From: Streptomyces sioyaensis
Lineage (GTDB): Bacteria > Actinomycetota > Actinomycetes > Streptomycetales > Streptomycetaceae
DNA length: 64,000 nucleotides
Reading direction: 5' to 3'
NCBI RefSeq assembly: GCF_004122735.1
Contig: NZ_SDIF01000024.1
Span: forward strand, 1 to 64,000
Shown: piece after piece, positions 4,557 to 32,124 of the stretch
Position numbering within the stretch: position 1 is the first letter of the stretch
Layout of the letters: each line of letters begins with the position of its first letter
The notes under the pieces: model-generated
The model's database searches: none
What the model was told of the DNA's origin: nothing
What the model saw: only the letters and a program-made list of their open reading frames with translations
Made by a program: the position numbers and the translations under genes

Positions 4557-4593
4557 GGTGCCTGCTCCTAGGGGAGGGGATGCTCCGGTGCGC

Positions 4594-6591: not shown

Positions 6592-6699
6592 GGCTCATCC
6601 CCCCGGTTCCGGCCAGCGACATGACCGCTGGCTGATTACAGAAGGTTGGCACGCGTAAGCGCAACGTGCCACCGGTTCACCCAAGGTGCCGAAGGTGGC

Positions 6700-7515
6700 T
6701 CATGTTCCTGAGTGGAGGCGTGTGGTTCCGCTGCCGGCCGGCCGCGCGGGCCGGGGCGGCCGGGCGAACTCCCATGTCGCAAGGCCCCGGGTCGGGCCGC
6801 CGAGCAGGACCACCGAGACGGCCTCCGCCACGCAGGGGGGAACGGGGAGCGGTGTGCGGGGCGCGGGGACCTCGGCTGCCCCGTCCGCGGCGGGCCGGAC
6901 GGCGGCCGGGGACGGGCCGGCGGCAGCGGCCTCGGACAGCCGGCGCAGGAGCCGGTCCAGGCCGCGGTGGTGCCGCGCGAACGCGCGTCGTGGTGCGCGC
7001 CGGCCGCGGGACTCCTGACCCGACAGCGCTTCGGCCCTGCCCACGTCCAGCAGGACCAGATGCAGGGGACGGCCCCGGCGCCCCGCCGCCCGGGCCATCC
7101 AGCGGCGCACCCAGGGGCGGCTGCCGCAGTCGTGGACCAACAGCGGTCCGTCGCCCCGGAGTTCGCGGTGCAGCCAGCGGATGTGCCGCCACCGTGCCCA
7201 GGGCCGGTAGAGGCCGTACGGCAACCAGCCCGGCATCACCGCTTCGCAGGCGACATGGACGGCCCGCGGATCGATGACGGTCGCCTGCGCGGGGGCGCGG
7301 CGCAGCAGGGTGCTCTTGCCGCTGCCCGGCAGGCCGGATACCACGACCACGGCGTTCGCCGGATAAGCCATGGTGAACGGGGACGACGGGGCCGGCCCGG
7401 CGTCGGTCCGGCCGCGCAGGTCGAGCAGTCCGCGGTGCCCCGCGAGGGACGGTGCCTGGGGTGAGCCGGACGGCGCCGCACCCGCCTCCGGCATGCCAGA
7501 GCCTCTGCTGTGCAC
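6700..7515 (-). CDS. P-loop kinase-like ATP-binding protein
   Basis: This 271-residue protein has a clear Walker A motif GLPGSGKST at about residues 60-68, preceded by the beta strand NAVVVVS. Later come PLLVHDCGS and LHLVLLDVG, consistent with a small AAA or zeta-toxin/kinase-like P-loop fold. The GTG start at 7515 has GGGGGAGG five bases upstream. The C-terminal third is Pro/Ala/Arg-rich and probably disordered. It is divergent from the PadR gene and separate from the STAND operon downstream (gap of about 110 nt). The substrate is unknown. Confidence 0.65.
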   Translation of the reverse strand: MHSRGSGMPEAGAAPSGSPQAPSLAGHRGLLDLRGRTDAGPAPSSPFTMAYPANAVVVVSGLPGSGKSTLLRRAPAQATVIDPRAVHVACEAVMPGWLPYGLYRPWARWRHIRWLHRELRGDGPLLVHDCGSRPWVRRWMARAAGRRGRPLHLVLLDVGRAEALSGQESRGRRAPRRAFARHHRGLDRLLRRLSEAAAAGPSPAAVRPAADGAAEVPAPRTPLPVPPCVAEAVSVVLLGGPTRGLATWEFARPPRPARPAGSGTTRLHSGT

Positions 7516-7575
7516 CGTTGCCTCCCCCGATTCCCCTTCGACGTCATCGTCGCACGGCGTGACGGGCGGCGGGTC

Positions 7576-7640
7576 CGTCCTTGAGAGGGAGCCGTCTTTG
7601 AGGGAGTCGTCTTTGAAGGGGCTCGTCCTTGAGAGGGCGC
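7576..7640. repeat. four imperfect tandem repeats, 15-17 nt unit
   Basis: Units beginning CGTC(C/T)TTGA at 7576, 7593, 7608 and 7624 run head to tail in the spacer between two divergent genes. The units have the form CGTCYTTGAGAGGGAGC with small indels. Confidence 0.7.
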
Positions 7641-7650
7641 GGACGCCGCG

Positions 7651-7684
7651 GCCGCGCGGGTGAGCCGCGTCTCACCCGCGCGGC
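7651..7684. other. 14-bp perfect hairpin between divergent genes
   Basis: GCCGCGCGGGTGAG (7651-7664) and its reverse complement (7671-7684) enclose a 6-nt loop. A terminator is unexpected here because the flanking genes diverge. It lies 11 nt before the PadR operator, so it may insulate the two promoters or belong to a leader. Confidence 0.5.
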
Positions 7685-7694
7685 GCCCCTTGTT

Positions 7695-7712
7695 TATGCA
7701 ACTCGTTGCATA
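7695..7712. promoter_or_regulatory. PadR operator candidate, perfect 18-bp palindrome
   Basis: TATGCAACTCGTTGCATA is a perfect dyad 13 nt before the PadR start codon. PadR-family regulators typically autoregulate by binding ATGxAAC/GTTxCAT-like dyads, so this is very likely the protein's own operator. It would also control the downstream acyl-CoA dehydrogenase gene if the two are co-transcribed. Confidence 0.75.
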
Positions 7713-7725
7713 GAAGGATCGGGGC

Positions 7726-8283
7726 ATGGCGCTCGACCACGCGATTCTCGTCTCCCTGCTGGAGAAGCCGGGCTCCGGCTATGAGCTGGCCCGGCGGTTC
7801 GAGCGGTCCATCGGCTACTTCTGGACCGCCACCCACCAGCAGATCTACCGCGTTCTCAAGCGCATGGAGAGCGACGGCTGGATCGATGTCCGAGAGGTGC
7901 CGCAACAGAGCCGCCCGGACAAGAAGGAGTACTCCGTCGCCGCGCTCGGCCGGACCGTCCTCGCCGAGTGGCTGCACGAGCCGATCGAACCGGAGAGCGT
8001 CCGGCACGAGCTCGCGGTGAAGATCCGCGGTGCGGCCTTCGACGACCCGGCCGCGCTGATCCGCGAGGTCGAGCGGCACCACCACAAGCACACCGAGCGG
8101 CTCGCGCACTATCTCGCGGGCGAGCGGCGGGACTTCACCGGACCGGACGCCCCCGAGGCCCTCGATACCGGAGAAGAGCTCCAGCACGTCGTGCTGCGCG
8201 GCGGCATCGCGTACGAGCGGATGACGATCGCCTGGCTGGAGGACGTGCTCGCCACCCTCCGCCGGCTCGGCACCGCCCCCTGA
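7726..8283 (+). CDS. PadR family transcriptional regulator
   Basis: This 185-residue regulator has the PadR winged-helix domain at residues 2-80. Signatures are LDHAILVSLLEKPGSGYEL, the recognition region HQQIYRVLKRME and the wing KKEYSVAALGR. A Vir-type C-terminal helical domain (about residues 90-180) serves for dimerisation. Such proteins usually repress a neighbouring gene and respond to small phenolic or lipophilic ligands. The start at 7726 follows AGAAGGATCGGGGC. The acyl-CoA dehydrogenase gene begins 104 nt downstream on the same strand and is its probable target. Confidence 0.92.
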   Translation: MALDHAILVSLLEKPGSGYELARRFERSIGYFWTATHQQIYRVLKRMESDGWIDVREVPQQSRPDKKEYSVAALGRTVLAEWLHEPIEPESVRHELAVKIRGAAFDDPAALIREVERHHHKHTERLAHYLAGERRDFTGPDAPEALDTGEELQHVVLRGGIAYERMTIAWLEDVLATLRRLGTAP

Positions 8284-8387
8284 ACCCGGCGCCGACGAGC
8301 CACCCGCCGCCCGGCCGCCGCGCTCACCGGCACGCCCGCACGTCCCTTGACCTCCACCCTCCCCGACGAACCGGAAAGGCGAACACC

Positions 8388-10109
8388 ATGGCCGACCCGC
8401 TGCTGTTCAACCCGCGGACCTACGACCCCGCGCACTTCGACCCCGAGACCCGCCGGCTGCTGCGCGCCACCGTCGACTGGTTCGAGGGCCGCGGCAAGCG
8501 CCGGCTGATCGAGGACTACCGCTCCCGCGCCTGGCTGGCGGAGTTCCTGGAGTTCTCCACCAAGGAAGGGCTGTTCGCGACCTTCCTCACCCCGGCCTCC
8601 GCCGCCGACGGAAACCAGGACAAGCGCTGGGACACCGCCCGGATCGCCGCCCTCAACGAGATCTTCGGCTTCTACGGGCTCGACTACTGGTACGCGTGGC
8701 AGGTCACCATCCTGGGACTCGGCCCGGTCTGGCAGAGCGACAACGCCGCCGTCCGCACCCGCGCGGCCGAACTCCTCGACCAGGGCGAGGTGTTCGCCTT
8801 CGGCCTGTCCGAGAAGGCGCACGGTGCCGACATCTACTCCACCGACATGCTGCTGGAGCCGGACGGCGACGGCGGCTTCCGCGCCAGCGGATCCAAGTAC
8901 TACATCGGCAACGGCAATGCCGCCGGACTCGTCTCCGTCTTCGGCCGCCGCACCGATGTCGAGGGCCCCGACGGCTATGTCTTCTTCGCCGCCGACAGCC
9001 GCCACCCGGACTACCACCTGGTCAAGAACGTCGTCGACTCCTCGAAGTACGTCAGCGAGTTCCGCCTCGACGGCTACCCGGTCGCCGAGGCCGACATCCT
9101 GCACACCGGCCGGGCCGCCTTCGACGCCGCCCTCAACACCGTCAACGTCGGCAAGTTCAACCTCTGCACGGGCGCGATAGGCATCTGCGAGCACGCGATG
9201 TACGAGGCCGTCACCCACGCGCAGAACCGCATCCTCTACGGCCGTCCGGTCACCGCGTTCCCGCATGTGCGCCGCGAGCTGACCGACGCCTACGTCCGTC
9301 TCGTCGGGATGAAGCTGTTCAGCGACCGCGCCGTCGACTACTTCCGCTCCGCGGGCCCGGACGACCGCCGCTACCTGCTCTTCAACCCGATGACGAAGAT
9401 GAAGGTGACCACCGAGGGCGAAAAGGTCATCGACCTGATGTGGGACGTCATCGCGGCCAAGGGCTTCGAGAAGGACACCTACTTCGCCCAGGCGGCCACC
9501 GAGATCCGGGGACTGCCCAAGCTGGAGGGCACCGTCCACGTCAACCTCGCGCTGATCCTGAAGTTCATGGGCAACCACCTGTTGAACCCGGCCGAGTACC
9601 CGCCCGTACCGACCCGCCTCGACGCGGCCGACGACGCGTTCCTCTTCCGGCAGGGGCCGGCCCGCGGTCTGGGCGCCATCCGCTTCCACGACTGGCGCGC
9701 CGCCTACGACGCCTATGCCGCCGTCCCCAACGTCGGCCGCCTCCGCGAGCAGGCGGACGCCCTGTGCGAGTTCGTCACCACCGCCGCGCCCGACGAGGAG
9801 CAGAGCCGCGACCTCGATCTCCTCCTGGCCATCGGCCAGCTGTTCGCGCTGGTCGTCCACGGTCAGCTGATCCTGGAGCAGGCGCGGCTGACCGGGCTCG
9901 ACGAGGAGGTGCTCGACGAGCTGTTCGCCGTCCTCGTCCGTGACTTCTCCGCGCATGCCGTGGAGCTGCACGGCAAGGACTCCGCCACGGAGGAGCAGCA
10001 GCGCTGGGCACTGGGCGCGGTCCGGCGCCCGGTCGTCGACGAGGCCCGCTCGGCCCGTGTCTGGGAGCGCGTCGAAGCGCTGGCCGGTGCGTACGAGATG
10101 GCCCCGTAA
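8388..10109 (+). CDS. acyl-CoA dehydrogenase family protein
   Basis: This 573-residue protein is longer than a classical acyl-CoA dehydrogenase (about 380-400 residues) because of an extra C-terminal helical region, as in acyl-CoA oxidase-like members. FGLSEKAHGADIYSTD matches the flavin/substrate-loop region, ASGSKYYIGNGNAA the central beta domain, and YGRPVTAFPHVRREL the C-terminal helical bundle. It should use FAD to oxidise an acyl-CoA thioester; the substrate is unknown. The ATG at 8388 has GGAAAGGCG upstream. A 23-bp hairpin follows the gene. Its regulator is probably the PadR protein encoded just upstream. Confidence 0.9.
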   Translation: MADPLLFNPRTYDPAHFDPETRRLLRATVDWFEGRGKRRLIEDYRSRAWLAEFLEFSTKEGLFATFLTPASAADGNQDKRWDTARIAALNEIFGFYGLDYWYAWQVTILGLGPVWQSDNAAVRTRAAELLDQGEVFAFGLSEKAHGADIYSTDMLLEPDGDGGFRASGSKYYIGNGNAAGLVSVFGRRTDVEGPDGYVFFAADSRHPDYHLVKNVVDSSKYVSEFRLDGYPVAEADILHTGRAAFDAALNTVNVGKFNLCTGAIGICEHAMYEAVTHAQNRILYGRPVTAFPHVRRELTDAYVRLVGMKLFSDRAVDYFRSAGPDDRRYLLFNPMTKMKVTTEGEKVIDLMWDVIAAKGFEKDTYFAQAATEIRGLPKLEGTVHVNLALILKFMGNHLLNPAEYPPVPTRLDAADDAFLFRQGPARGLGAIRFHDWRAAYDAYAAVPNVGRLREQADALCEFVTTAAPDEEQSRDLDLLLAIGQLFALVVHGQLILEQARLTGLDEEVLDELFAVLVRDFSAHAVELHGKDSATEEQQRWALGAVRRPVVDEARSARVWERVEALAGAYEMAP

Positions 10110-16386: not shown

Positions 16387-17604
16387 ATGGCAACGCAACC
16401 GGTGGAGACGCTCGATCTGTCGGCAATGGGGGAGGACTTCGTCCGCAACCCGTACGCGGTGTACGCGTCGCTGCGCGAGCAGGGCCCGGTACACCGCGTA
16501 CGTCTCCCGGAGGGCACGGTCGTCTGGCTGGTCGTCGGATACGACGAGGTGCGTGCGGCGCTCAGCGACCCGCGGCTGTCGAAGGAGTGGCGGCACGCCT
16601 CGTCCGCGCAGCCGATGCAGCCGGTGACCATGGGCGTGACGATGCTCCGCTCCAACACGCCGCACCACACCCGGCTGCGCGGCCTGGTGGCCCGCGCCTT
16701 CACGGCCCGCCGGATGGCGTCCCTCACGCCGCGCATCCAAGAGCTGACCGACGAACTGCTGGCGGCGATGCTCGCCGCGCCCGACGGCCGTGCCGATCTC
16801 GTCGACGCACTGTCCTTCCCCCTGCCGATCACCGTCATCTGCGAGCTGCTGGGCGTTCCGTTCCTGGACCGGGAGGCCTTCCGCGCCTGGACCGACGTCC
16901 TGCTCGTCGGCGCCGCGACGCCGGAGGCCAGGGAAGCCCTGGCGGCCATGACCGGCTACCTCGACGAGCTGGTGAAGAAGAAACGGGCCTGCCCCGGCGA
17001 CGATCTGCTGAGCGATCTGATCGCGGTGAGCGACGAGGACGGCGACCGGCTCAGCGAGCAGGAACTCCTGGGAATGGCCCAGCTGTTGCTGATCGCGGGC
17101 TATGAGACGACCGCCAATCTCATCTCCAACGGCGTCCTGGCTCTCCTCACCCACCCGGCGCAACTCGCCGCGCTGCGCGCCGATCTGTCCCTCATCGACA
17201 ACGCGGTCGAAGAGATGCTGCGCTACGAGGGACCGATCGAGACCTCCACCTTCCGTTTCACCACCGAGGCGACCGAGATCGCGGGAACGGTGATCCCCGG
17301 CGGCGGCGAGGTCGTCCTCCCCGTGATCGCCGACGCGGGACGGGACCCGGTCCGCTTCGGTGACCCCGGGCACTTCGACATCACCCGCGACGCCCGCGGC
17401 CATGTGGCCTTCGGCCATGGCATCCACTTCTGCCTCGGCGCCCCGCTGGCACGCATGGAGGCACGGATCGCGGTGCGCACGCTCCTGGAGCGCTGCCCGA
17501 CGCTGGAGCTGGACGCACACCCGGCCGATCTGCGCTGGCGGTTGGGTGCGTTGCTCCGCGGCCCGCGGCACCTTCCGGTCCGCTGGTCGCCGAAGGCCGG
17601 GTGA
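16387..17604 (+). CDS. cytochrome P450 (second of three)
   Basis: This 405-residue soluble P450 has I-helix IAGYETTAN, K-helix EEMLR, and heme loop FGHGIHFCLG with Cys349. The start is the ATG at 16387 behind GGGGGAGGAGG; the longer frame upstream would translate a tandem repeat array and is rejected. It is closest in style to actinobacterial CYP107-like enzymes. No ferredoxin or reductase gene is adjacent. It is preceded by a 4 x 21-nt repeat and appears to be transcribed alone. The substrate is unknown. Confidence 0.93.
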   Translation: MATQPVETLDLSAMGEDFVRNPYAVYASLREQGPVHRVRLPEGTVVWLVVGYDEVRAALSDPRLSKEWRHASSAQPMQPVTMGVTMLRSNTPHHTRLRGLVARAFTARRMASLTPRIQELTDELLAAMLAAPDGRADLVDALSFPLPITVICELLGVPFLDREAFRAWTDVLLVGAATPEAREALAAMTGYLDELVKKKRACPGDDLLSDLIAVSDEDGDRLSEQELLGMAQLLLIAGYETTANLISNGVLALLTHPAQLAALRADLSLIDNAVEEMLRYEGPIETSTFRFTTEATEIAGTVIPGGGEVVLPVIADAGRDPVRFGDPGHFDITRDARGHVAFGHGIHFCLGAPLARMEARIAVRTLLERCPTLELDAHPADLRWRLGALLRGPRHLPVRWSPKAG

Positions 17605-23160: not shown

Positions 23161-23895
23161 CTAGGAGTCGATGGCCCCGGCGCCGGAGGCCCCGGCGTCG
23201 GCCTGCCCGGTGTCCTGGGTCGGGATACGGGCGTCCGCCCACCCTTGTACCGTCGGCTCCTCCAGCGAGTCGACCCACCAGTCGGCCAGCGCCTGCTCCT
23301 TCTCGCCGGGCTGTGCGCCGACCCCGAGCACCCGCATGCCGGCGGCCGCGGCGGCCTGCACGCCGCAGTGGGAGTCCTCGACGGCCAGGGCGTCCCCCGG
23401 GTCGACTCCGCAGAGCCGGGCCGCGGTGACGTACACGTCGGGGTGCGGTTTGGGCCTGATGGCGGCGTCGGGCACCACGATGTGGCGGAAGCACTCCCGG
23501 AGTCCGGCCAGGCCCAGGCAGGACTCGACGACTTCCAGTGGGCAGTTGCTGGCCACCGCCAGCGGGGCGAACTGCACGGCCGAATGCACCAGTTCCGGCG
23601 CGCCGGGCATGGTGGTGGGGTTGGCGGCCACGAGCTCGCGGAAGCGGTCGAGCAGGGTGTCCGTCATGTCCTTGGTCAGGTCGGGGCGGTCGGCCGCCTC
23701 GGCCATCAGGCGCCCGCATTCGGTGTAGTGCAGTCCCCGGGCCTGTTCGGAGAATTCGGCCGAGGGGGTGCAGCCGTATTCGCGCAGCACCATGTCGCGG
23801 GCGTCCACCCAGTGGCGTTCGGTGTCCATCAGGGTGCCGTCGCAGTCGAAGACCACGGCGGCGGGTGTCCAGGAGAAAAAGCGATGTGCGGTCAT
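23161..23895 (-). CDS. HAD superfamily hydrolase, beta-phosphoglucomutase-like
   Basis: This 244-residue phosphatase has all four HAD motifs: VFDCDGTLMDTE (nucleophile Asp and acid Asp), VASNCPLE, the Lys motif RPKPHPDVY and VEDSHCGVQAA. A four-helix cap lies between motifs I and II, typical of the phosphoglucomutase/phosphatase subclass. The ATG at 23895 (MTAHRFF) places motif I near residue 14; the longer frame is rejected. It ends convergently to the GntR gene. Its substrate is probably a sugar phosphate, unidentified. Confidence 0.9.
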   Translation of the reverse strand: MTAHRFFSWTPAAVVFDCDGTLMDTERHWVDARDMVLREYGCTPSAEFSEQARGLHYTECGRLMAEAADRPDLTKDMTDTLLDRFRELVAANPTTMPGAPELVHSAVQFAPLAVASNCPLEVVESCLGLAGLRECFRHIVVPDAAIRPKPHPDVYVTAARLCGVDPGDALAVEDSHCGVQAAAAAGMRVLGVGAQPGEKEQALADWWVDSLEEPTVQGWADARIPTQDTGQADAGASGAGAIDS

Positions 23896-24052
23896 CCGGG
23901 TTTCCGTTCCGACAGGCCCGGAGCGGCGAATGACCGGTCGCGTTGCGGGGCGAGGCAGCGTCGGATGACGGCCGCCGGGCACCGGGCTGGGGGTTTCCGG
24001 CAGAGGGCAGCCACCGCGAAAGGGGGAACCTGGTGCGCTCTGCAGCGGAAAA

Positions 24053-24123: not shown

Positions 24124-25044
24124 CTATGAGTAACTCAGGGTTCCGTAGGCCGTCCGTGTGTCGTCCTGGGTGACACGGAAGACGCAGGTCGAGTCGTACT
24201 GCGTGCACAGCACCCGTGCGGGCGGGGCGAGTTCGGTGAACCGGACGGCCTTCAGGCGGCCGGCGCGCGGCCGGCCCAGGGCGCCCCCGCTGCCGTACGC
24301 GGCGGCCTGCCGCGCGGCCTCCAGGAGTGCCATGCCCGGCACATGGTCGGTCGGGTGGTCGAAGAGGAACGGGTGCAGCGGGTCGGCCGGCGAGAGGAGC
24401 AGCCCGCTCCCGGCGACGGCAAGGACCGCGTCCTGCGGGTGGTTCACCGACAGCTCCGCCGCCGGCGGGCGGTATGCCGCCTCCGGGGCGGCGGCCACCA
24501 TGCCCACGCGGGCCGACCTGCCGCGCAGCGCGCGGTACTGCGCGTCGCTGAGGAACCGCACACCGCCGCCTCCCTGCCCGAAGGCCAGCCCGCAGACGGT
24601 GAAGGCGGCGTCCAGGCGCAGGCCGGAGACGCGGCGGCCCGGGCTGCGCCGCACCGCGCTCACCCACGCGCGGCAGGTGACCTCGGTCGCTCCGGCGCGG
24701 GCAGGTGGCTCGTTGCCGGGCGCGAGGCGGAAGTACAGGTCGGTGATGACCGCGTGGCACGCCGCGGGAACGGCGTAGAACCGCAGCGGGATGTAGAGAC
24801 CGAGCTGACGCAGCGTCTCCACCAGGATCAGCGGGCTGTGCCGCGGTGATCCGTCGCGGGGGAACGTCGCATGGGCGCGCGGCCACGACGCGGCCGCGGC
24901 GAAGACATGGGGGGTGTCCGTCCGCCGTACATCCGTAAGGAGGACCTCCGCCACGGAAGTCCGGTGCACCAGCTCCCGCTCGACGGTGCGGGACCAGCTG
25001 AGCGGCTCACTCTTTCCGGCGGTGCCAGCAGTTGAGGAACTCAT
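24124..25044 (-). CDS. gamma-butyrolactone biosynthesis protein, AfsA/ScbA type
   Basis: This 306-residue AfsA-family protein has two hotdog-like repeats. The first is near residues 25-150 (LVHRTSVAEVLLTDV, SPLILVETLRQLGLYI) and the second near 190-290 (VNHPQDAVLAV, HPFLFDHPTDHVPGMALLEAARQAA). AfsA-family enzymes condense a beta-ketoacyl thioester with dihydroxyacetone phosphate to make the signalling butyrolactone. The gene diverges from a TetR-type receptor gene with about 105 nt between starts, the classic signalling pair. A candidate ARE operator lies 23 nt upstream of its start. Confidence 0.92.
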   Translation of the reverse strand: MSSSTAGTAGKSEPLSWSRTVERELVHRTSVAEVLLTDVRRTDTPHVFAAAASWPRAHATFPRDGSPRHSPLILVETLRQLGLYIPLRFYAVPAACHAVITDLYFRLAPGNEPPARAGATEVTCRAWVSAVRRSPGRRVSGLRLDAAFTVCGLAFGQGGGGVRFLSDAQYRALRGRSARVGMVAAAPEAAYRPPAAELSVNHPQDAVLAVAGSGLLLSPADPLHPFLFDHPTDHVPGMALLEAARQAAAYGSGGALGRPRAGRLKAVRFTELAPPARVLCTQYDSTCVFRVTQDDTRTAYGTLSYS

Positions 25045-25067: not shown

Positions 25068-25085
25068 GAACATGCGCACCTGTTC
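25068..25085. promoter_or_regulatory. candidate ARE operator for the butyrolactone receptor
   Basis: GAACATGCGCACCTGTTC is an imperfect palindrome; the half-sites match at 8 of 9 positions. It lies between the divergent synthase and receptor genes. Receptor proteins of this family bind about 22-bp AREs with TGTT(T/C)-type ends. Its position over the most upstream ATG of the receptor frame favours a later start for that gene. Confidence 0.6.
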
Positions 25086-25149
25086 ATTCCGGGTGGCGCA
25101 GCGCGATAGATTGCGGGCCGCCGGCACGAGAACGACATCTGAGGTGTAC

Positions 25150-25803
25150 GTGCAGATCCGGGCGAAGACGACACGCAGGTTCCTTCTGGAGGCGGCGGCG
25201 GCCCTGTTCGACGAGCGAGGGTACGCCGGCACCAGCATCAGCGATATCAGCGCACATTCCGGCCGCACCAGCGGGGCGATCTATTTCCATTTCGCCAGCA
25301 AGGAGAAGCTCGCCCTCGCCATTGTCGAGGAGCATTTTGCCACCTGGCCGCAATTGATCACCCGGTACCGCAAGCCCGGTCTGCCCGCCCTGGAGAAACT
25401 CGTCGGACTCAGCTTCGACGTGGCCCGGGCGTTCCGTGACGACATCGTGGTACGCGCCGGATCCCGTCTCTGGGCCGAACGCAAGGCCATCGAAACCGAG
25501 CTTCCCGCCCCCTTCCTCGGCTGGATCGACCTGGTCACCCAGCTCCTCGAAGAGGCCGGCGACAACGGTGAACTCGCCGCCGGTGTGCCGCCCGCCGCCA
25601 CCGCGCACAGCGTCGTCTGCGCCTTCTTCGGACTGCACACCGTCTCCGACGCCCTGGAGGGGCGCCGGCACATCGAGGCCCATCTGCACGACCTGTGGCT
25701 GCTGCTGCTCCGCGGCCTCCAGGCCGAACCGGACCCCGCGGGCCTGCTCGACCGGGTACGCCGGCGGGCCCGTACGGGCAGGCCGGCACCCGAACCGGCA
25801 TAG
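25150..25803 (+). CDS. TetR-type gamma-butyrolactone receptor
   Basis: This encodes about 217 residues. The N-terminal TetR helix-turn-helix domain (residues 5-55) contains RFLLEAAAALFDERGYAGTS and SGRTSGAIYFHFASKEKL, the strongly conserved form of ScbR/ArpA receptors. The helical ligand domain follows. It should repress the divergent synthase and downstream targets until butyrolactone binds. The start is uncertain: GTG at 25150 has GAGG five bases upstream; 25144 (GTG) and 25072 (ATG) are in frame, but the last lies inside the candidate operator. Confidence 0.88.
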   Translation: MQIRAKTTRRFLLEAAAALFDERGYAGTSISDISAHSGRTSGAIYFHFASKEKLALAIVEEHFATWPQLITRYRKPGLPALEKLVGLSFDVARAFRDDIVVRAGSRLWAERKAIETELPAPFLGWIDLVTQLLEEAGDNGELAAGVPPAATAHSVVCAFFGLHTVSDALEGRRHIEAHLHDLWLLLLRGLQAEPDPAGLLDRVRRRARTGRPAPEPA

Positions 25804-25934: not shown

Positions 25935-26095
25935 TGACATCAGCAGTTAGTTGCACCGCAGTGCGCTTATGTCTATCGTCTCGATGCGGGGCCGTCGAAA
26001 GATGGCCATAGGGGGACGGCCAGTGACCGTCATAGCTTCTGCGGCCAAGCCGGATACGGCTGTTGCCGCATGCCGAACCACGACGGGAGACCCGC

Positions 26096-27043
26096 ATGGC
26101 GGCTGATCGCAGCAGTTCTCTCTCCGGCAGCCGCCGAGAGCGAATTCCCTTCCTCGTCGCCCAGGGAAAGCCGGCGGACGACACGGCATTGCGCACGCTG
26201 CTGCCCGCCGCCGCGCACAAAGGGGCAACGGGCGCTCAGGAAGCGCCGTTCGGGATAGGCGCCGCCTGGCAACTCGGCGAAAGCCTCTACACGCAGGTGC
26301 AGGACAATTCCACCGGGCGGCTGGCCGTATTCGCCACGCGCGGCTCCGGGCACATAGAGCGCGTCACCGGCTACACCTGGAACGTCGCCCCCGTCTGGCG
26401 GCTGCTCACCGGACCGGCTGCTCCGTGTGATCTGTGGTCCCAACTGCGCTACGAACACTTCCTGCGGCACTCTCCGGTGGCGGATCACGTCCCGGAGTGT
26501 GCGGACCACTGCGGCGGTCGCCCGGAGGGCGGTGCGCCCTCCCCGGACGCCGCGGACGTTTCCCCGTGCGACGAGGCGCCCGCGCCGCCGTGGTCCCGGG
26601 CCGGCGATCCGCTCGAAGAGCTCTGGGAGGCGTCGTGTCCGAAGGGGTCGGCACCCCAACGGCTCCAGGAGGGCGCGGAGTTGCTGCGCCGGCGGGTGGC
26701 CCACCTGCTGGCCGACTGCCCGGTCCCGCCGCTGCACGAGCGTCCGCACGCCGAGCATCTCGACGCTGAACTCTCCCACCAACTCCTGCGGGCCTACGAC
26801 GCCTTGAGGGGGGCGCTCGCGCTGCACTGCCCCCGGCAGAGCGGCTGGCTCGGCTCCTGGGCCTATGGCATCGCCGAGGAACTGATCTGGCGCGGCCGTC
26901 TGGGAGCCGCGCGCAGCGCTGCCGAACGGACCGCACGGGAGTCGATGGCGGTGGAATCCGCCCTGTCGTCCCCGTGGCCGCTGCCGGCCCCGCACATCTG
27001 CCCCGGGCTGCTCACCGTGCACGACGAGGCCCCGGGTATCTGA
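26096..27043 (+). CDS. unrecognised soluble protein
   Basis: This encodes 315 residues with no signal peptide or membrane helix. The N-terminal part (about residues 20-110) is mixed alpha/beta (IGAAWQLGESLYTQVQDN, RLAVFATRGSGHIERV). A Cys-containing acidic linker follows (about 120-170), and the C-terminal half is helical with SGWLGSWAYGIAEELIWRG. The ATG at 26096 follows GGGAGA with five bases of spacing. It lies between the butyrolactone pair and the XRE cassette, and no family is recognised. The antisense frame is a codon-bias shadow. Confidence 0.65.
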   Translation: MAADRSSSLSGSRRERIPFLVAQGKPADDTALRTLLPAAAHKGATGAQEAPFGIGAAWQLGESLYTQVQDNSTGRLAVFATRGSGHIERVTGYTWNVAPVWRLLTGPAAPCDLWSQLRYEHFLRHSPVADHVPECADHCGGRPEGGAPSPDAADVSPCDEAPAPPWSRAGDPLEELWEASCPKGSAPQRLQEGAELLRRRVAHLLADCPVPPLHERPHAEHLDAELSHQLLRAYDALRGALALHCPRQSGWLGSWAYGIAEELIWRGRLGAARSAAERTARESMAVESALSSPWPLPAPHICPGLLTVHDEAPGI

Positions 27044-27230
27044 CCGGTCGCCCGATTCGGCCGGCGGACCGCTCCGTTCCGGCCGAACCGGACTCCGGCG
27101 GGCGGGATTCCCGCAGCCGAGGCCGGGCCTCTCGTCCCGCGTACGCAGGTCAACGGTGCCGCGTACCCTGCACCGGGGGGCACCGTGCCGCGTGCGACCC
27201 TTTAGTGCACACGCCACGGAGGGGACAAGG

Positions 27231-27731
27231 TTGGACCGCCACGAATTCGCCAGGGCGGCAGGCACGTCCGCCGGTCCGGACGGGGCCGCGCACGCCGCCA
27301 AGACCGCCATCGCCCGCAGGCTCCGGCACATCCGCCACCACCACCCCGAAGGCCCCTTCACCCTGGCCCGGCTGGCGGAACTCGCCGGGGTCTCGAAGCG
27401 CACCCTGGCCGCTGCCGAATCCGCGGACGGAACCAACCTGACCGTGGAGACCCTCGTCAAGGTGGCCCACAGTCTGGGCGTCTCCCGGGTGGCCTACTTC
27501 CTCGACGAGCAGGTCTTCGACGATGTCAACTCCGAGCTGGAGCTGCTCAGGAAGATGCGTACGCACCGCGTCGAGAGCGTGGCGCTGCGGCAGACGGGCC
27601 CTGCCGCCCCCGACTCCTCGCTGAGCGAACTGAGCCATCTCATCACCCGGTTGGTCAGCACCGCCGAGGCCGCCCGCGCGACCCTGGAGGACCTGCCGGG
27701 GCAGGGCCGCAATGACCGCTCGCCGCAGTGA
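27231..27731 (+). CDS. XRE family helix-turn-helix regulator
   Basis: This 166-residue regulator starts at TTG 27231, placed six bases after a strong GGAGGGG site; upstream codons lack a ribosome site. A helix-turn-helix sits near residues 35-90 (FTLARLAELAGVSKRTLAAAE, then TVETLVKVAHSLGV). The C-terminus is helical (SSLSELSHLITRLVSTAEAA). Its stop overlaps the GTG of the ImmA/IrrE-like gene. XRE plus metallopeptidase pairs usually work together, with the peptidase cleaving the repressor in response to a signal. Confidence 0.88.
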   Translation: MDRHEFARAAGTSAGPDGAAHAAKTAIARRLRHIRHHHPEGPFTLARLAELAGVSKRTLAAAESADGTNLTVETLVKVAHSLGVSRVAYFLDEQVFDDVNSELELLRKMRTHRVESVALRQTGPAAPDSSLSELSHLITRLVSTAEAARATLEDLPGQGRNDRSPQ

Positions 27732-28303
27732 TGGTGATGCGCTGGCGGCACAAAGACGCGGACCCGCAGGCGACGCGGCTGCGCGAACAGTGCGAACGAC
27801 GGGTCGACGCCCTCGGGCTGCCCGCGCACACGAAGCTGTCCATCGACGACCTGTGCGCACACCTCAGCCGGAGCTCCGGACGGCCCATCCAGCTCCTGCC
27901 CTGTCCGCTGCCGCTGGGCAGCCCGGACGGCCTGTGGGTCTCCACCGCGAGCACGGAGTACGTCGTCTACGAGCAGCGGCTCGCGCCGGTGCACCAGCAG
28001 CAGGTCATCCTGCACGAGCTGGGCCACCTCATCTGCGACCACGAGGCGAGCCCGGTCCTCACCCCCGAGGCCTCCCGGCTCCTGCTGCCCTCGCTCGACC
28101 CGGCTCTGATCCGCCGGACGCTGGGGCGCGAACACGCCCGGTCCTGGGCGGAGACCGAAGCCGAGTACGTCGGCTCGCTGATCGGGCGCCGGATCGGCAG
28201 CTGGACCGCCGACCACGTCCGGCCCGTCCCACCCGCGATGCAAGAGCTGGTCTCCCGGCTCGGTGCGCTGGACAACCCCGCCTTCCGAGGAAGCAATGAA
28301 TAG
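27728..28303 (+). CDS. ImmA/IrrE-like metallopeptidase
   Basis: This 191-residue protein has the zinc-peptidase motif LHELGHLICDHE (HExxH with a later acidic residue) near residue 98, as in ImmA/IrrE (M78-type) proteins that inactivate XRE repressors. The C-terminal half is helical (SWAETEAEYVGSLIGRRIG). It starts with GTG at 27728, overlapping the XRE stop by four bases, and its 3' end overlaps the next start by eight bases. In Streptomyces this family commonly sits between an XRE gene and a MAB_1171c-type gene, exactly as here. Confidence 0.88.
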   Translation: MMVMRWRHKDADPQATRLREQCERRVDALGLPAHTKLSIDDLCAHLSRSSGRPIQLLPCPLPLGSPDGLWVSTASTEYVVYEQRLAPVHQQQVILHELGHLICDHEASPVLTPEASRLLLPSLDPALIRRTLGREHARSWAETEAEYVGSLIGRRIGSWTADHVRPVPPAMQELVSRLGALDNPAFRGSNE

Positions 28304-29486
28304 CGTTCTCTACCCCTTGTGTGCTGCCGTCGCCGGCCTGGCGCTGCTGTACAAACTGCGCGTACTGCGCACGGACCGCTCCGTGACGCAGGTCGCGCTG
28401 CTCGCCAACTTCTTCTTCCTGTTCGTCACCTACACCGTCTCCACCCCCGCGGTCTGGGCGGCGACCAGCAGCGCCGTCGGCATCGTCAACTTCTCCGGGT
28501 TGCTGTCGCAGAGCTGCGTCATCCTGCTGACGGCGTGCCAGCAGATCGTGCTGCTCCACCTCAGCCATGAGGCCCCGGTCGCCTGGCGCAAGGCACGCCC
28601 CCGGCTGATCGGACTCGGGCTCGTACTCGTCGCCATGGTCGTGCTGTTCACCGTGGCCACCAGCCGCGGGGAGAAGCCCGACGACTTCGCCATCGACAGC
28701 GCCCAGTACTACCCCGCCTACCTCGCCCTCTACCTGCTCGCCTATGCCGCGAACCAGGTCGACGTGGGCGTCCTCGGCTGGCGTTACGCCAGGATCGCTC
28801 CGCAGCCCTGGATGCGTCGCGGGCTGTACCTCATCGCCGCGACGCTGCCGTTCGCCCTCGTCTACACCGGATGCCGGGCCGCGGACATCGTGGCCGCCCA
28901 GTTCGGCGTCGGTGGGCAGGCCTGGGAGCCGGTGGCCCAGGTCGCCGTCACCATCGCGACCCTCAGCAAGACACTGGGCTGGATCCTCCCCGACTGGGGC
29001 CGCCATCTCACCGCGCTGTGGCAGCGGTTCACCGACTACCGCGCCTTCCGGGAGCTGGGCCCGCTGCACCGCGAGGTCACCGCCCAGATTCCCGAACCGG
29101 TGCTGCACCTCGAACCCGACACGGATCTGCGGACCCGGCTCTACCGCCGACTCGTCGAGATCCGCGACGCCCAATGGGCGCTCCGCGTCTGGATCCCGGC
29201 CGATGTGGCCGACGCCGCCGACGCGCGCGCCCGGGCGGCCGGCCTGGACGGCACCGACCTGGCCGCCACCGTCGAAGCCGCTCAGCTCAGGGCCGCGCTG
29301 GCGGCGCGGGCCGGGCAACGACGGCCCGCCGTCCACCCGCCCACGCCCCGCGTGGCGGAGCCCCAGGACCTCGCTGCCGAACTCGCCTTCCAGCGCAAAC
29401 TGGCGCGAGCATTCACCACGTCCCCGATCGTCCGGGCCGCGGCCGCGCACCCCGCCGCCGGCCCGGCAACCCAGGAACGCACATGA
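28296..29486 (+). CDS. MAB_1171c-type multi-pass membrane protein
   Basis: This 396-residue protein has an N-terminal half with about seven hydrophobic helices (LYPLCAAVAGLALLYKL, LLANFFFLFVTYTVS, LGLVLVAMVVLFTV, AYLALYLLAYAANQV and others). The C-terminal cytoplasmic half is about 160 residues with LRTRLYRRLVEIRDAQWALRVW. That arrangement matches the MAB_1171c family, labelled putative transporters but without proven function. The start (ATG at 28296) overlaps the ImmA-like stop, and its own stop overlaps the P450 start (ATGA). Four genes are thus coupled without gaps. Confidence 0.85.
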   Translation: MNSVLYPLCAAVAGLALLYKLRVLRTDRSVTQVALLANFFFLFVTYTVSTPAVWAATSSAVGIVNFSGLLSQSCVILLTACQQIVLLHLSHEAPVAWRKARPRLIGLGLVLVAMVVLFTVATSRGEKPDDFAIDSAQYYPAYLALYLLAYAANQVDVGVLGWRYARIAPQPWMRRGLYLIAATLPFALVYTGCRAADIVAAQFGVGGQAWEPVAQVAVTIATLSKTLGWILPDWGRHLTALWQRFTDYRAFRELGPLHREVTAQIPEPVLHLEPDTDLRTRLYRRLVEIRDAQWALRVWIPADVADAADARARAAGLDGTDLAATVEAAQLRAALAARAGQRRPAVHPPTPRVAEPQDLAAELAFQRKLARAFTTSPIVRAAAAHPAAGPATQERT

Positions 29487-30682
29487 CCCAGCAGACCCCG
29501 GCACCGCCCCTCGGCCGCCCCTTCGACCAGGACTTCTTCCAGGACCCCTACCCCACCTACGCCCGGCTGCGCAGCGCAGGGCCGGTGCACCGGATCGCGC
29601 TGCCCGACGGGTCCCCCGTCTGGCTGGTCACCCGGGAGCGCGACGTCCGGGCCGGGCTCACCGACACGCGGCTGTCGGTGAACAAGGCCCATTCCACCAA
29701 CGGTTACCAGGGGTTCTCCCTGCCGCCCGCGCTGGACGCCAATCTCCTCAACATCGACCCGGACGATCACCTGCGGCTGCGCCGGCTGGTCTCGAAGGGC
29801 TTCACCCCACGGCACGTCGAGCAGCTCCGCGCGCGGGTTGCCGAGGTGGCAGGTCAATTCGCCGACCGGCTGGCCGAGGTGGGGCAGGCCGATCTGGTCA
29901 CGACGTTCGCCCACCCGCTGCCGCTGGTCATCATCGGCGACCTGCTGGCCGTGCCCGAGGCGGACAGCCGGACGTTCTCCGGATGGGTCGCCGCCATGTT
30001 CGCCCCCGAGTACCCGGGGCACACCGCCGAAGCGATCGGACACATCCACCGCTACCTCCTGGACCTCATCTCCGCCCGCCGCGCACACCCCGCGGACGAC
30101 CTGCTGTCCTCCCTGATCGCCGCCCGGGACGACGGTGCCCGGCTCAGCGAGGACGAACTGGTCTCGCTGGCCTTCCTGATCCTCATGGCGGGCAGCGAGA
30201 ACACCCAGCACCTGATCAGCGGCGGACTGCTCACCCTGCTCCGCCATCCCGACCAGCTGACCACCCTGCGCGCCCGCCCCGAGCTGATGCCCGAGGCCGT
30301 CGAGGAGCTGTTCCGCTTCGCCCATCCCAACCAGATGGCGATCCGGCGCTTCCCCACCGAACCCGTCGAGATCGGCGGCGTACGGATTCCGACGGGCGAC
30401 ACCGTGCTGCTCGCGCTCGCGTCCGCGCACCGGGACCCGTCCCGCTACCCCGAACCGGACCGCTTCGACATCCACCGGGCCGACAAGACGCATCTCGCGC
30501 TCGGCCACGGCGTCCACTACTGCCTGGGCGCCGCCCTGGCCCGGCTGGAAATCCGCACCGCCCTGAGCACCCTGCTCGACAGGTTCCCGGGGCTGCGGCT
30601 CGCCGTGCCGGACGAACAGCTGGAGTGGCGCGCGTCGTTCCGCTCGCACGCACTCAAGCAACTGCCCGTCGCCATCGGGTAA
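29483..30682 (+). CDS. cytochrome P450 (third), end of XRE cassette
   Basis: This 399-residue P450 has a K-helix ExxR as EELFR, an I-helix MAGSENTQHL and a heme loop LGHGVHYCLG with Cys347. Two signatures deviate. The usual Phe seven residues before the Cys is Leu, and the I-helix has AGSENT in place of the common AGxxTT, so the oxygen-activation Thr pair is reduced to one Thr. It starts at ATG 29483 overlapping the MAB_1171c stop, so it belongs to the XRE/ImmA cassette. Its substrate is unknown. Confidence 0.92.
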   Translation: MTQQTPAPPLGRPFDQDFFQDPYPTYARLRSAGPVHRIALPDGSPVWLVTRERDVRAGLTDTRLSVNKAHSTNGYQGFSLPPALDANLLNIDPDDHLRLRRLVSKGFTPRHVEQLRARVAEVAGQFADRLAEVGQADLVTTFAHPLPLVIIGDLLAVPEADSRTFSGWVAAMFAPEYPGHTAEAIGHIHRYLLDLISARRAHPADDLLSSLIAARDDGARLSEDELVSLAFLILMAGSENTQHLISGGLLTLLRHPDQLTTLRARPELMPEAVEELFRFAHPNQMAIRRFPTEPVEIGGVRIPTGDTVLLALASAHRDPSRYPEPDRFDIHRADKTHLALGHGVHYCLGAALARLEIRTALSTLLDRFPGLRLAVPDEQLEWRASFRSHALKQLPVAIG

Positions 30683-30996: not shown

Positions 30997-32124
30997 ATGA
31001 CGAACCACACGCAAGAGCCCGCTGTGCGCAGGAGCCGCACCCGGATACCGGCCACCGCCGCGGCGGCAACGGCTGCGGCACTCGCCGCGTCGCTGCTCGC
31101 CGGCTGCTCGACCGGGGACCAGGAGGACGCCAAGAGCCCCGCGCCGGTGGCGTCCTCGCCCCACAGGAGCAAGGCCCCCGCCCCGAAATCCCCGTCCCCG
31201 AAGGCGCCCACGCACGCTCCCTCCACCCCCGCCCCGGCGTCCCCCGCCTTCGCGCCGTACGTCGACACCTCGCTCAGGCCCTCCTACGACCTCCTCAAGG
31301 GCGCCCGGGAGACCGGGGTGAAGGAGTACAACCTGGCGTTCGTCTCGCCGGGGGACGGCTGTGTGCCCAAGTGGGGCGGCCGACAGGAGCTGGCCGACAA
31401 CCCGGTGGCCCGGCAGGCGGACCGACTGCGCGCCCAGGGGGGCGAGGTGCGGATCTCCTTCGGCGGTCAGAGCGGAAACGAACTGGCCCGGGTCTGCGGC
31501 TCGGTGGACAAGCTGGTGGCCGCCTACCGCAAGGTCATCGACGCCTACCACCTGACGAAGGCCGACTTCGACATCGAGGGCCCCGCCCTGACGGACACCA
31601 AGGCCAACGACCTGCGCGCCCGGGCGATCGCCCGGCTCCAGCAGCGCCGGAAGCTGGATGTCTCCTTCACGCTGCCGGTGATCCCCTCCGGCCTGAACCG
31701 GGACTCCCTCGCGGTGCTGAACAGCGCGAAGAAGAACGGCGTCCGGGTCTCCGCCGTGAACATCATGGCCATGGACTACGGCACCTACTACGACGGTGAC
31801 ATGGGCAAATACGCCATCGACGCCGCCACCGCCACCCACCGGCAGATCAAGGCGGCGCTGGGCATCCACAGCGAGGCCGCGGCATGGAAAACCGTGGGGG
31901 TCACGCCGATGATCGGGGTGAACGACGTCAAGGGCGAGGTCTTCCGGCCGGACGACGCGGTCGAACTCACGGCGTTCGCCGAGAAGAAGGGGCTCGGCCG
32001 GCTGTCGATGTGGTCCCTCACCCGCGACAAGCCCTGCCCGGAAGGCGCGAACATCAAGGCGCAGGCGACCTGTTCCAGCATCGGGAAGAACTCCAACGAG
32101 TTCGTGCGGGCCTTCACCGGCTGA
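30997..32124 (+). CDS. secreted lipoprotein with GH18 chitinase-like domain
   Basis: This 375-residue protein has a lipoprotein signal (AATAAALAASLLAGC, modified Cys near residue 36), then a Pro/Lys/Ser linker (about residues 45-80), then a TIM-barrel-like domain. The domain carries KADFDIEG, matching the GH18 DxxDxDxE loop with its catalytic Glu. VRISFGGQSGNEL and NIMAMDYGTYY fit the chitinase beta-3 and beta-6 strands. It is probably a surface chitinase or a non-catalytic chitin-binding relative. It is monocistronic. The enzymatic call is moderate because the domain is compact. Confidence 0.8.
   Translation: MTNHTQEPAVRRSRTRIPATAAAATAAALAASLLAGCSTGDQEDAKSPAPVASSPHRSKAPAPKSPSPKAPTHAPSTPAPASPAFAPYVDTSLRPSYDLLKGARETGVKEYNLAFVSPGDGCVPKWGGRQELADNPVARQADRLRAQGGEVRISFGGQSGNELARVCGSVDKLVAAYRKVIDAYHLTKADFDIEGPALTDTKANDLRARAIARLQQRRKLDVSFTLPVIPSGLNRDSLAVLNSAKKNGVRVSAVNIMAMDYGTYYDGDMGKYAIDAATATHRQIKAALGIHSEAAAWKTVGVTPMIGVNDVKGEVFRPDDAVELTAFAEKKGLGRLSMWSLTRDKPCPEGANIKAQATCSSIGKNSNEFVRAFTG

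Follow-up and report, generated by a model that had tools for sequence, protein, structure and literature searches.

Several bacterial switches pair an XRE-type regulator with an M78 metalloprotease, among them PprI(IrrE)–DdrO and CapP–CapH. In PprI, a GAF-like domain (residues 177–277) is needed for activation by single-stranded DNA (PMC10904395). A protease gene beside its presumed XRE substrate is also seen in ImmA–ImmR of ICEBs1 and phages, and COG2856–Xre pairs have been catalogued as toxin–antitoxin-like or regulatory modules (PMC2701414). Here we describe a four-gene cassette in a 64,000-nucleotide stretch of Streptomyces sioyaensis DNA (contig NZ_SDIF01000024.1, positions 1–64,000; the whole stretch is hereafter called the window), in which genes for an XRE-type regulator and an ImmA/IrrE-type protease are followed by genes for a MAB_1171c family membrane protein and a cytochrome P450. 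It differs from PprI–DdrO and CapP–CapH in its third gene, which encodes a seven-helix membrane protein, and in a protease without a match to the GAF-like sensor. To the ImmA–ImmR arrangement it adds a receptor-like membrane protein and a metabolic enzyme, and it is widespread, often in several copies per genome.

Other known systems share different parts of this design. In BlaR1/MecR1–BlaI, a membrane sensor, a zinc protease and a repressor act in one pathway; BlaR1 joins sensor and protease in one polypeptide, whereas the cassette encodes three separate proteins, with another protease family and another membrane fold. Seven membrane helices and a cytosolic output domain are common to HisKA_7TM, 7TMR-DISM, 7TMR-HD and LytS/BtsS proteins, but the presumed output of the cassette is a separate protease rather than a kinase, cyclase or HD domain. 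Receptors with seven helices have been described for other bacterial families (PMC10653868). Conservons are likewise actinobacterial, multi-copy signaling operons whose variable last gene can be a P450 (PMC13343842); the four cassette genes, however, match none of CvnA–D and include no kinase-like protein, roadblock protein or GTPase. For MAB_1171c itself, the only article found among the literature matches listed reports that a Mycobacterium abscessus knockout formed about half the biofilm and had a cefoxitin minimum inhibitory concentration of 4 vs 16, and its authors invoke transport of biofilm constituents (PMC8707978). The titles and abstract openings of the matches listed, mostly without subscription papers, gave no account of the four-gene module, and no match listed was for DUF6545.

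We propose that the cassette is a chemical response unit contained in one operon, in which a receptor gates a protease that inactivates a regulator while an enzyme processes the ligand. As a whole, this reading is plausible but tentative, falling a little short of an even chance. The MAB_1171c protein would be a seven-helix receptor with a fold like that of G-protein-coupled receptors (GPCRs), its amino end outside the cell and its conserved DUF6545 output domain in the cytosol, and would sense a small molecule that differs from clade to clade. On ligand binding, the receptor would switch on the neighboring minimal IrrE/ImmA protease, which would cleave or strip off the EspR/XRE-type regulator and so raise expression of the operon. 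The product of the last gene, here a CYP107-like P450, would then modify the sensed molecule or its precursor and close a feedback loop; the P450 would most likely inactivate or convert the sensed molecule. What the analysis shows is the gene order with its overlaps, the families, the conserved catalytic residues, the predicted folds, the recurrence and the link of enzyme class to receptor clade; ligand sensing, receptor–protease contact, regulator cleavage and the action of the enzyme on the ligand are steps that we infer.

A gap-free cassette recurs across many genomes

The four genes lie on the forward strand without gaps. In order, they encode an XRE/EspR-like DNA-binding regulator (27231–27731, 166 aa, TTG start), an ImmA/IrrE-type (M78) metalloprotease consisting of the protease domain only (27731–28303, 190 aa), the MAB_1171c family membrane protein (28296–29486, 396 aa) and the CYP107-like P450 (29483–30682, 399 aa), with overlaps of 1, 8 and 4 nt. 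The first junction reads TGATG and shares 1 nt with the default ATG start of the protease gene, or 4 nt if an alternative GTG start at 27728 is used; the 4-nt overlap between the last two genes is ATGA. A candidate ribosome-binding site read from the sequence, GGAGGGG (27218–27224, forward strand), precedes the TTG start. In S. kronopolitis, the close ortholog starts with GTG where the window has this TTG, again behind a similar purine run. A purpose-written codon-usage gene caller returned the same four genes. An earlier, sequence-only reading had described four genes overlapping start to stop, and this was borne out, with family scores above the curated cut-offs: HTH_3 30.5 bits (cut-off 23) for the regulator, Peptidase_M78 (PF06114) 25.3 bits (cut-off 22) for the protease, DUF6545 94.6 bits (cut-off 24.4) and NF042915 (MAB_1171c) 214.3 bits (cut-off 100) for the membrane protein, and p450 106 bits (cut-off 22.8) for the last gene. 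The overlaps suggest that the four genes are translated together.

A single tight junction is unremarkable, because of 891 neighboring gene pairs in the fetched loci and the window, counting pairs without any XRE, ImmA or MAB gene, 154 (17%) are on the same strand and separated by at most 10 nt. What is of interest is the recurrence of the gene order across many genomes. In the cassettes, equally tight spacing was found for 58 of 74 ImmA–MAB pairs and 39 of 87 pairs of MAB and the next gene.

Of 121 genomes from the genus, 100 had at least one NF042915 match, and a single genome had as many as 11. Matches also occurred in 43 of 197 genomes drawn from the class (30 over the cut-off) and in 14 of 148 drawn from the phylum, where the six over the cut-off were all Streptomyces. 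In the genome from which the window comes there were five matches, but two are partial genes at contig ends (C62, covering profile positions 4–91, and C77, covering 88–362) and may be one gene, so that this genome probably holds four cassettes.

We surveyed the neighborhoods of 129 different MAB_1171c genes of at least 250 aa (200 before duplicates and short sequences were removed; loci L001–L222 and the window), a set biased in that most members came from the top of score-ordered lists. An ImmA-type protease gene lay at most 700 nt upstream on the same strand in 113 of the 125 loci with at least 1450 nt of upstream sequence, and both this gene and an XRE gene (XRE profile, within 1600 nt) were present in 81 of the 125; where no XRE gene was found, the genes may be ordered differently, or the flank, 1500 nt at many loci, may have been too short. 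The recurrence that the sequence-only reading stated for Streptomyces holds across many genomes, and we regard it as virtually certain that the module is real.

The partner enzyme follows the phylogeny of the membrane protein

The next gene downstream of the 129 MAB_1171c genes was on the same strand within 10 nt at 51 loci (41 with a 4-nt overlap), at 11–100 nt at 24, at 101–300 nt at 19 and farther away at 13; at 19 loci it was on the opposite strand, and three had too little sequence or no gene. Partner classes were assigned from BLAST clusters, with Pfam and NCBIfam applied to representatives only. In 86 of the 128 loci that entered a tree of the membrane proteins, the partner was a small-molecule enzyme of one of eight classes: P450 (25), amidase (18), amidohydrolase (14), PAP2-like (11), FAD oxidoreductase (8), aldo/keto reductase (6), alpha/beta hydrolase-like (2, below the cut-off) and acyl-CoA-ligase-like (2). 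Two of three scanned PAP2-like representatives matched PAP2 just under the cut-off and the third matched nothing, and one P450 (L160), broken into three frames, was scored by hand. The remaining loci had a 315-aa protein of unknown family (3), an XRE gene downstream (5), a second MAB gene (2), other partners (4, one of them an S-adenosylmethionine methyltransferase in the window's genome, L165) or none (28), a class for loci whose next gene is on the opposite strand or that lack a gene on the same strand within 350 nt; it includes four loci with an XRE gene beyond 350 nt. The locus left out of the tree (L166, under 300 aa) belongs to the window's own genome and has a P450.

The maximum-likelihood tree of these 128 proteins was built by a quick method, and the tool flagged several long branches. 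On this tree, the partner classes of the 96 rows assigned to one of 11 named classes required 11 changes (the minimum possible is 10), compared with a mean of 62.8 and a minimum of 57 in 500 label shuffles; the 86 rows with the eight enzyme classes required 8. P450s are found in several separate clades, and P450 against all other states took 6 changes. Of the two findings named beforehand as telling against the sequence-only reading, one, a random fourth gene, was thus not borne out: the fourth gene varies, but enzyme class follows membrane-protein clade.

The window's own clade, defined as MAB_1171c proteins at least 54% identical, comprises 21 loci after removal of five duplicates: the window, 15 named loci, L157–L159 (with a P450), L161 (without) and plasmid pSGZL of Streptomyces sp. 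769. It includes two near-identical pairs (the window and S. kronopolitis, 92%; an S. nigrescens plasmid and NRRL S-337, 97%). A P450 gene lies next to MAB_1171c in 18 of the 21, the copy of S. antioxidans being split by frame shifts into three pieces; the three loci where it does not adjoin MAB_1171c are those of S. echinatus, Streptomyces sp. H27-C3 and G375. These P450s are 62–90% identical to the window's and about as conserved as the membrane protein. The two next relatives (49 and 46%) have an acyl-CoA-ligase-like gene in the P450's place (L162 by scan, L163 by cluster).

The mix of oxidation, hydrolysis, reduction and methyl transfer among partners suggests processing of the sensed compound more than a common pathway, and we give an even chance to the idea that the enzyme acts on the ligand. 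Alternatively, the last enzyme could make the signal, finishing a hormone-like autoinducer that the receptor senses in a quorum-type loop. The joint evolution of receptor clade and enzyme class fits this, as does the presence of one enzyme per operon. In the window there is also a divergent pair of genes for a ScbA/BarX butyrolactone synthase (24124–25044, reverse strand) and a ScbR-type receptor (25072–25803, forward strand), about 1.4 kb upstream of the XRE gene, with a HAD hydrolase gene at 23161–23982. However, among 15 clade loci (up to 6 kb of flank, two with a shorter upstream stretch) a ScbA/ScbR neighbor was found only in S. kronopolitis, the closest relative, and in another search at none of 80 loci, and we rejected a butyrolactone link. 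Several partner classes are hydrolases, which fits breakdown at least as well, and P450s of this kind often stand alone. We therefore regard a signal-making role as unlikely.

The membrane protein is predicted to have a GPCR-like fold

An AlphaFold model computed from a 98-sequence alignment (pLDDT 93.2, pTM 0.86) predicts seven membrane helices in the MAB_1171c protein, at about residues 5–26, 30–48, 66–90, 93–123, 139–167, 184–202 and 208–240, the last of which continues into a helical cytosolic domain. The bundle (residues 5–240) is encoded by 28308–29015 and the DUF6545 domain (residues 246–374) by 29031–29417, both on the forward strand. Lys and Arg make up 19–24% of loops 18–31, 88–100, 162–180 and 232–250 and 4–7% of the opposite loops, which indicates that the amino end is outside and the carboxyl end inside.

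To place the fold, we compared the model with known structures. Foldseek returned 857 matches in the PDB to E 10 (best 0.016), and the best 50 of the 857 were all GPCRs. VIA, applied to Foldseek's best 1000, likewise placed only GPCRs or designed GPCR-like folds in its best 50 rows, with Z falling from 16.2 for the first (rmsd 3.9 over 225 residues) to 14.4 at rank 50, and covered residues 1–240. By the tool's own yardstick, mostly helical models that lack a clear match typically reach a best Z of 14 and, at rank 50, typically 6 and at most 13, so the likeness is somewhat above what such models give. A GPCR-like fold is thus highly probable for the modeled protein, with good but not conclusive support, and is meant as a likeness of fold, not common descent. 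A sequence search of the PDB with the membrane-protein profile gave a best E of 0.048, chance-like and without a GPCR, and homology to HisKA_7TM was rejected (hhalign probability 3.7%, 18 vs 11 sequences).

Conservation was distributed unevenly along the protein. Pfam DUF6545 was matched in 97 of the 98 family members, and mean pair identity was higher in this part than in the bundle (0.295 vs 0.238), as expected of a fixed output joined to a variable sensor. Seven of eight invariant or near-invariant columns lie behind the membrane part, the eighth (G228) being in the seventh helix.

These features bear on the reading of MAB_1171c as a transporter that exports or imports the product or substrate of the P450, with XRE–ImmA as ordinary operon control. 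Such a role would agree with the NCBI family name ('putative transporter'), with the biofilm and cefoxitin phenotypes of the M. abscessus knockout as its authors read them, and with weak matches of the TctB family to 2 of the 98 members. Against it are the predicted GPCR-like arrangement of the helices and the greater conservation of the cytosolic domain than of the bundle. Matches to transporter families were scattered and weak, none with more than two among the 25 Pfam families listed for the 98 members (E 0.1), and the parts of PMC8707978 covered report no transport assay. We find a transporter improbable, and a receptor likely in its stead; the NCBI label looks wrong. The membrane-sensing role suggested by the sequence-only reading thus gains from a protein predicted to be receptor-like, with seven helices.

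Among viral models, the best Foldseek E was 0.0027, with none to 0.001. The first rows included a phage histidine kinase, herpesvirus GPCRs and Gordonia phage membrane proteins of roughly 240 aa, which are among the closest viral structural neighbors of the bundle (TM on target 0.65, 0.63 and 0.50 for three named proteins, and up to 0.71 for other entries).

The P450 keeps the heme Cys and the ExxR motif

The P450 of the window retains the heme Cys (codon 30521–30523) and the ExxR motif, as seen in a motif alignment. Its I helix reads AGSEN, with Asn where Thr is usual. In the window's P450 clade this Asn is found in nearly all members, and Leu replaces the heme-loop Phe in most, cassette-borne or not. 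The same site holds Asn in P450cin, which is still active. Solved relatives include 7wex, PikC and CYP107A1/EryF; PikC and EryF act on macrolides, and a bulky hydrophobic ligand is therefore a fair guess. A second P450 in the window (16387–17604), about 42–49% identical to the cassette P450s, has the usual AGxETT motif.

These proteins could also be accessory sensors or modulators rather than catalysts, with the heme site binding the signal and communicating with the membrane protein or regulator. This has been suggested for the CvnE P450s of conservons, and in the G-protein systems of actinobacteria, sensorless kinases go with a P450 or GAF protein encoded after the core genes (PMC13343842). 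The Asn and Leu replacements also count in favor of this reading. However, the P450 retains the heme Cys and ExxR, Asn at this site is compatible with activity in other P450s, and other clades have hydrolases, reductases and a ligase-like protein as partners, which share no common ligand site; a sensor role for the P450 is accordingly quite improbable.

The protease model resembles IrrE/CapP, and the cassette regulator profile matches EspR

The HExxH zinc motif of the protease (H95, E96, H99) is encoded at 28013–28027 on the forward strand and the codon for E141 is at 28151–28153; all four residues are invariant in 48 of 48 aligned proteases. With the protease model (pLDDT 83.9), the four best Foldseek rows were IrrE/PprI (E 0.018–0.068, none at 0.001), and the five best VIA rows were IrrE (Z 10.6 and 10.4), CapP (10.1) and PprI (9.6 and 8.5), the best structures being 3dti/3dte, 8sln/8slm and CapP 7t5t; BlaR1 was low in the list (Z about 3). 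A sequence search of the PDB with the protease profile found no IrrE, only BepA at E 0.18 or worse. The VIA alignments reach at most target residues 6–173, and the matches stop at residue 153 of IrrE. The C-terminal GAF-like sensor domain of PprI has no counterpart in the 190-aa protease, and the fold match is to the protease part only. The ImmA/IrrE-like peptidase of the sequence-only reading is upheld by this fold match and by the invariant catalytic residues. That the protease inactivates the regulator is, in our judgement, slightly favored.

A profile of 41 cassette regulators matched EspR of M. tuberculosis over nearly its whole length (E 2e-40) and DdrO far less well (E 4e-4). The window's regulator alone matched EspR at E 2.5e-4; its helix-turn-helix is of a variant type that differs from that of EspR, and within the window's clade the type changes while protease and membrane protein stay the same. 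The regulator's relatives are EspR-like, which does not support its description as an XRE repressor. PADLOC, applied to the four cassette proteins alone, gave four weak DNA-binding-domain matches, all for the regulator (best capH, E 1.8e-5), and no CBASS gene was found among the four; we found no support for a defense system.

The cassette is also found on plasmids and in phage Adler

Two plasmids, SNP1 of S. nigrescens and pSGZL of Streptomyces sp. 769, carry the cassette. Mycobacterium phage Adler (KC960489.1, 6128–9741; positions 4447–8060 of locus L260) has a complete cassette in the same order, with XRE at 6128–6607, ImmA at 6607–7116, MAB_1171c at 7113–8333 and P450 at 8326–9741 (overlaps of 1, 4 and 8 nt). 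Its membrane protein scores 110 bits (cut-off 100) and its P450 250 bits; the protease scores 15.8 bits with Pfam (cut-off 22) yet matches the cassette profile at E 4e-40. The Adler P450 is only about 25% identical to the window's over 224 residues and looks like an independent recruitment to the same slot. The three genes after XRE are annotated as hypothetical. Adler was reached through its protease; tblastn with two membrane proteins against 50,697 phage records gave nothing at E 10.

A toxin–antitoxin-like or mobile stress module, with XRE–ImmA as an addiction pair and the other genes as cargo, would suit the plasmid and phage copies and the listing of COG2856–Xre pairs as such modules (PMC2701414), but it is very improbable given that the four genes include no toxin family, that the PADLOC matches are weak and confined to the regulator, and that enzyme class goes with the phylogeny of the membrane protein.

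The receptor–protease reading has points against it

What the sequence-only reading had offered was a membrane-sensed signal that relieves XRE repression through an anti-repressor peptidase, with the P450 as output. Its recurrent unit has held up, as have a membrane protein now predicted to be receptor-like and a protease with an IrrE/CapP-like fold. The P450 as general output and the XRE protein as repressor gained no support, the former because enzymes of different classes fill this place in other clades and the P450 occurs outside the cassette as well. Beyond it are the GPCR-like fold, the relation to EspR and the protease without a sensor domain.

Several observations weigh against our proposal. 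On the side of the membrane protein, Foldseek found no PDB match at E 0.001 or below, and neither GPCR sequence homology nor a GPCR family among the 25 Pfam families listed for the 98 members was found. The PDB is rich in GPCRs, and other seven-helix bundles may also list them. On the side of the enzyme, no partner on the same strand within 350 nt was scored for 28 of the 128 rows in the tree. The label shuffles ignore relatedness and therefore argue for a stable, clade-wise pairing and not for repeated co-transfer. G378, G491, G362 and G422 carry P450s with 75–80% identity to that of the window but no MAB gene in the surrounding 16 kb, and in the P450 tree cassette copies interleave with stand-alone copies of 57–80% identity, so the P450 is not dedicated to the cassette, and an exclusive pairing is rejected. 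As for the regulator, we know of no report that M. tuberculosis EspR is cleaved, and in the search for a conserved operator the window's upstream region showed no palindrome beyond those in shuffled sequences.

More broadly and more doubtfully, a large actinobacterial family of receptors with a GPCR-like fold might use a detached IrrE-type protease for signaling where other receptors use a G protein or kinase. Their operons would exchange receptor, regulator type and ligand-processing enzyme together, as a modular hormone or xenobiotic system on chromosomes, plasmids and a phage. If so, hundreds of Streptomyces 'putative transporters' would be receptors, each bringing a clue to its ligand in the partner enzyme and a simple read-out in regulator cleavage. 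In the main antibiotic-producing genus, one could then work from an orphan receptor toward its signal molecule, and the system would illustrate how a DNA-damage-type protease switch was re-wired to a membrane receptor.

Neighboring genes, tandem cassettes and palindromes

Upstream of the cassette, the window encodes a protein without a family match (26063–27043). Its homologs flank the cassette upstream in S. kronopolitis, and in S. nigrescens and NRRL S-337 they lie convergently behind the P450. A GH18-like lipoprotein gene (30997–32124) adjoins the P450, and its homologs are found near cassettes of the aldo/keto-reductase type in L102 and L108. Tandem cassettes were seen in G402 (L158, 5662–14960), where a hydrolase-like type is followed by a P450 type, and in S. 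netropsis (L231, 1414–8420).

Over 89 upstream regions, the mean longest palindrome arm was 5.6, compared with 5.25 in shuffles. Near-perfect palindromes like GGTGCAACATGTTGCACC precede the XRE gene at two loci of S. triculaminicus and are candidate operators, and a palindrome similar to GGTGCAACATGTTGCACC is present in Streptomyces sp. SAJ15 (palindrome-bearing loci L229, L232 and L226).

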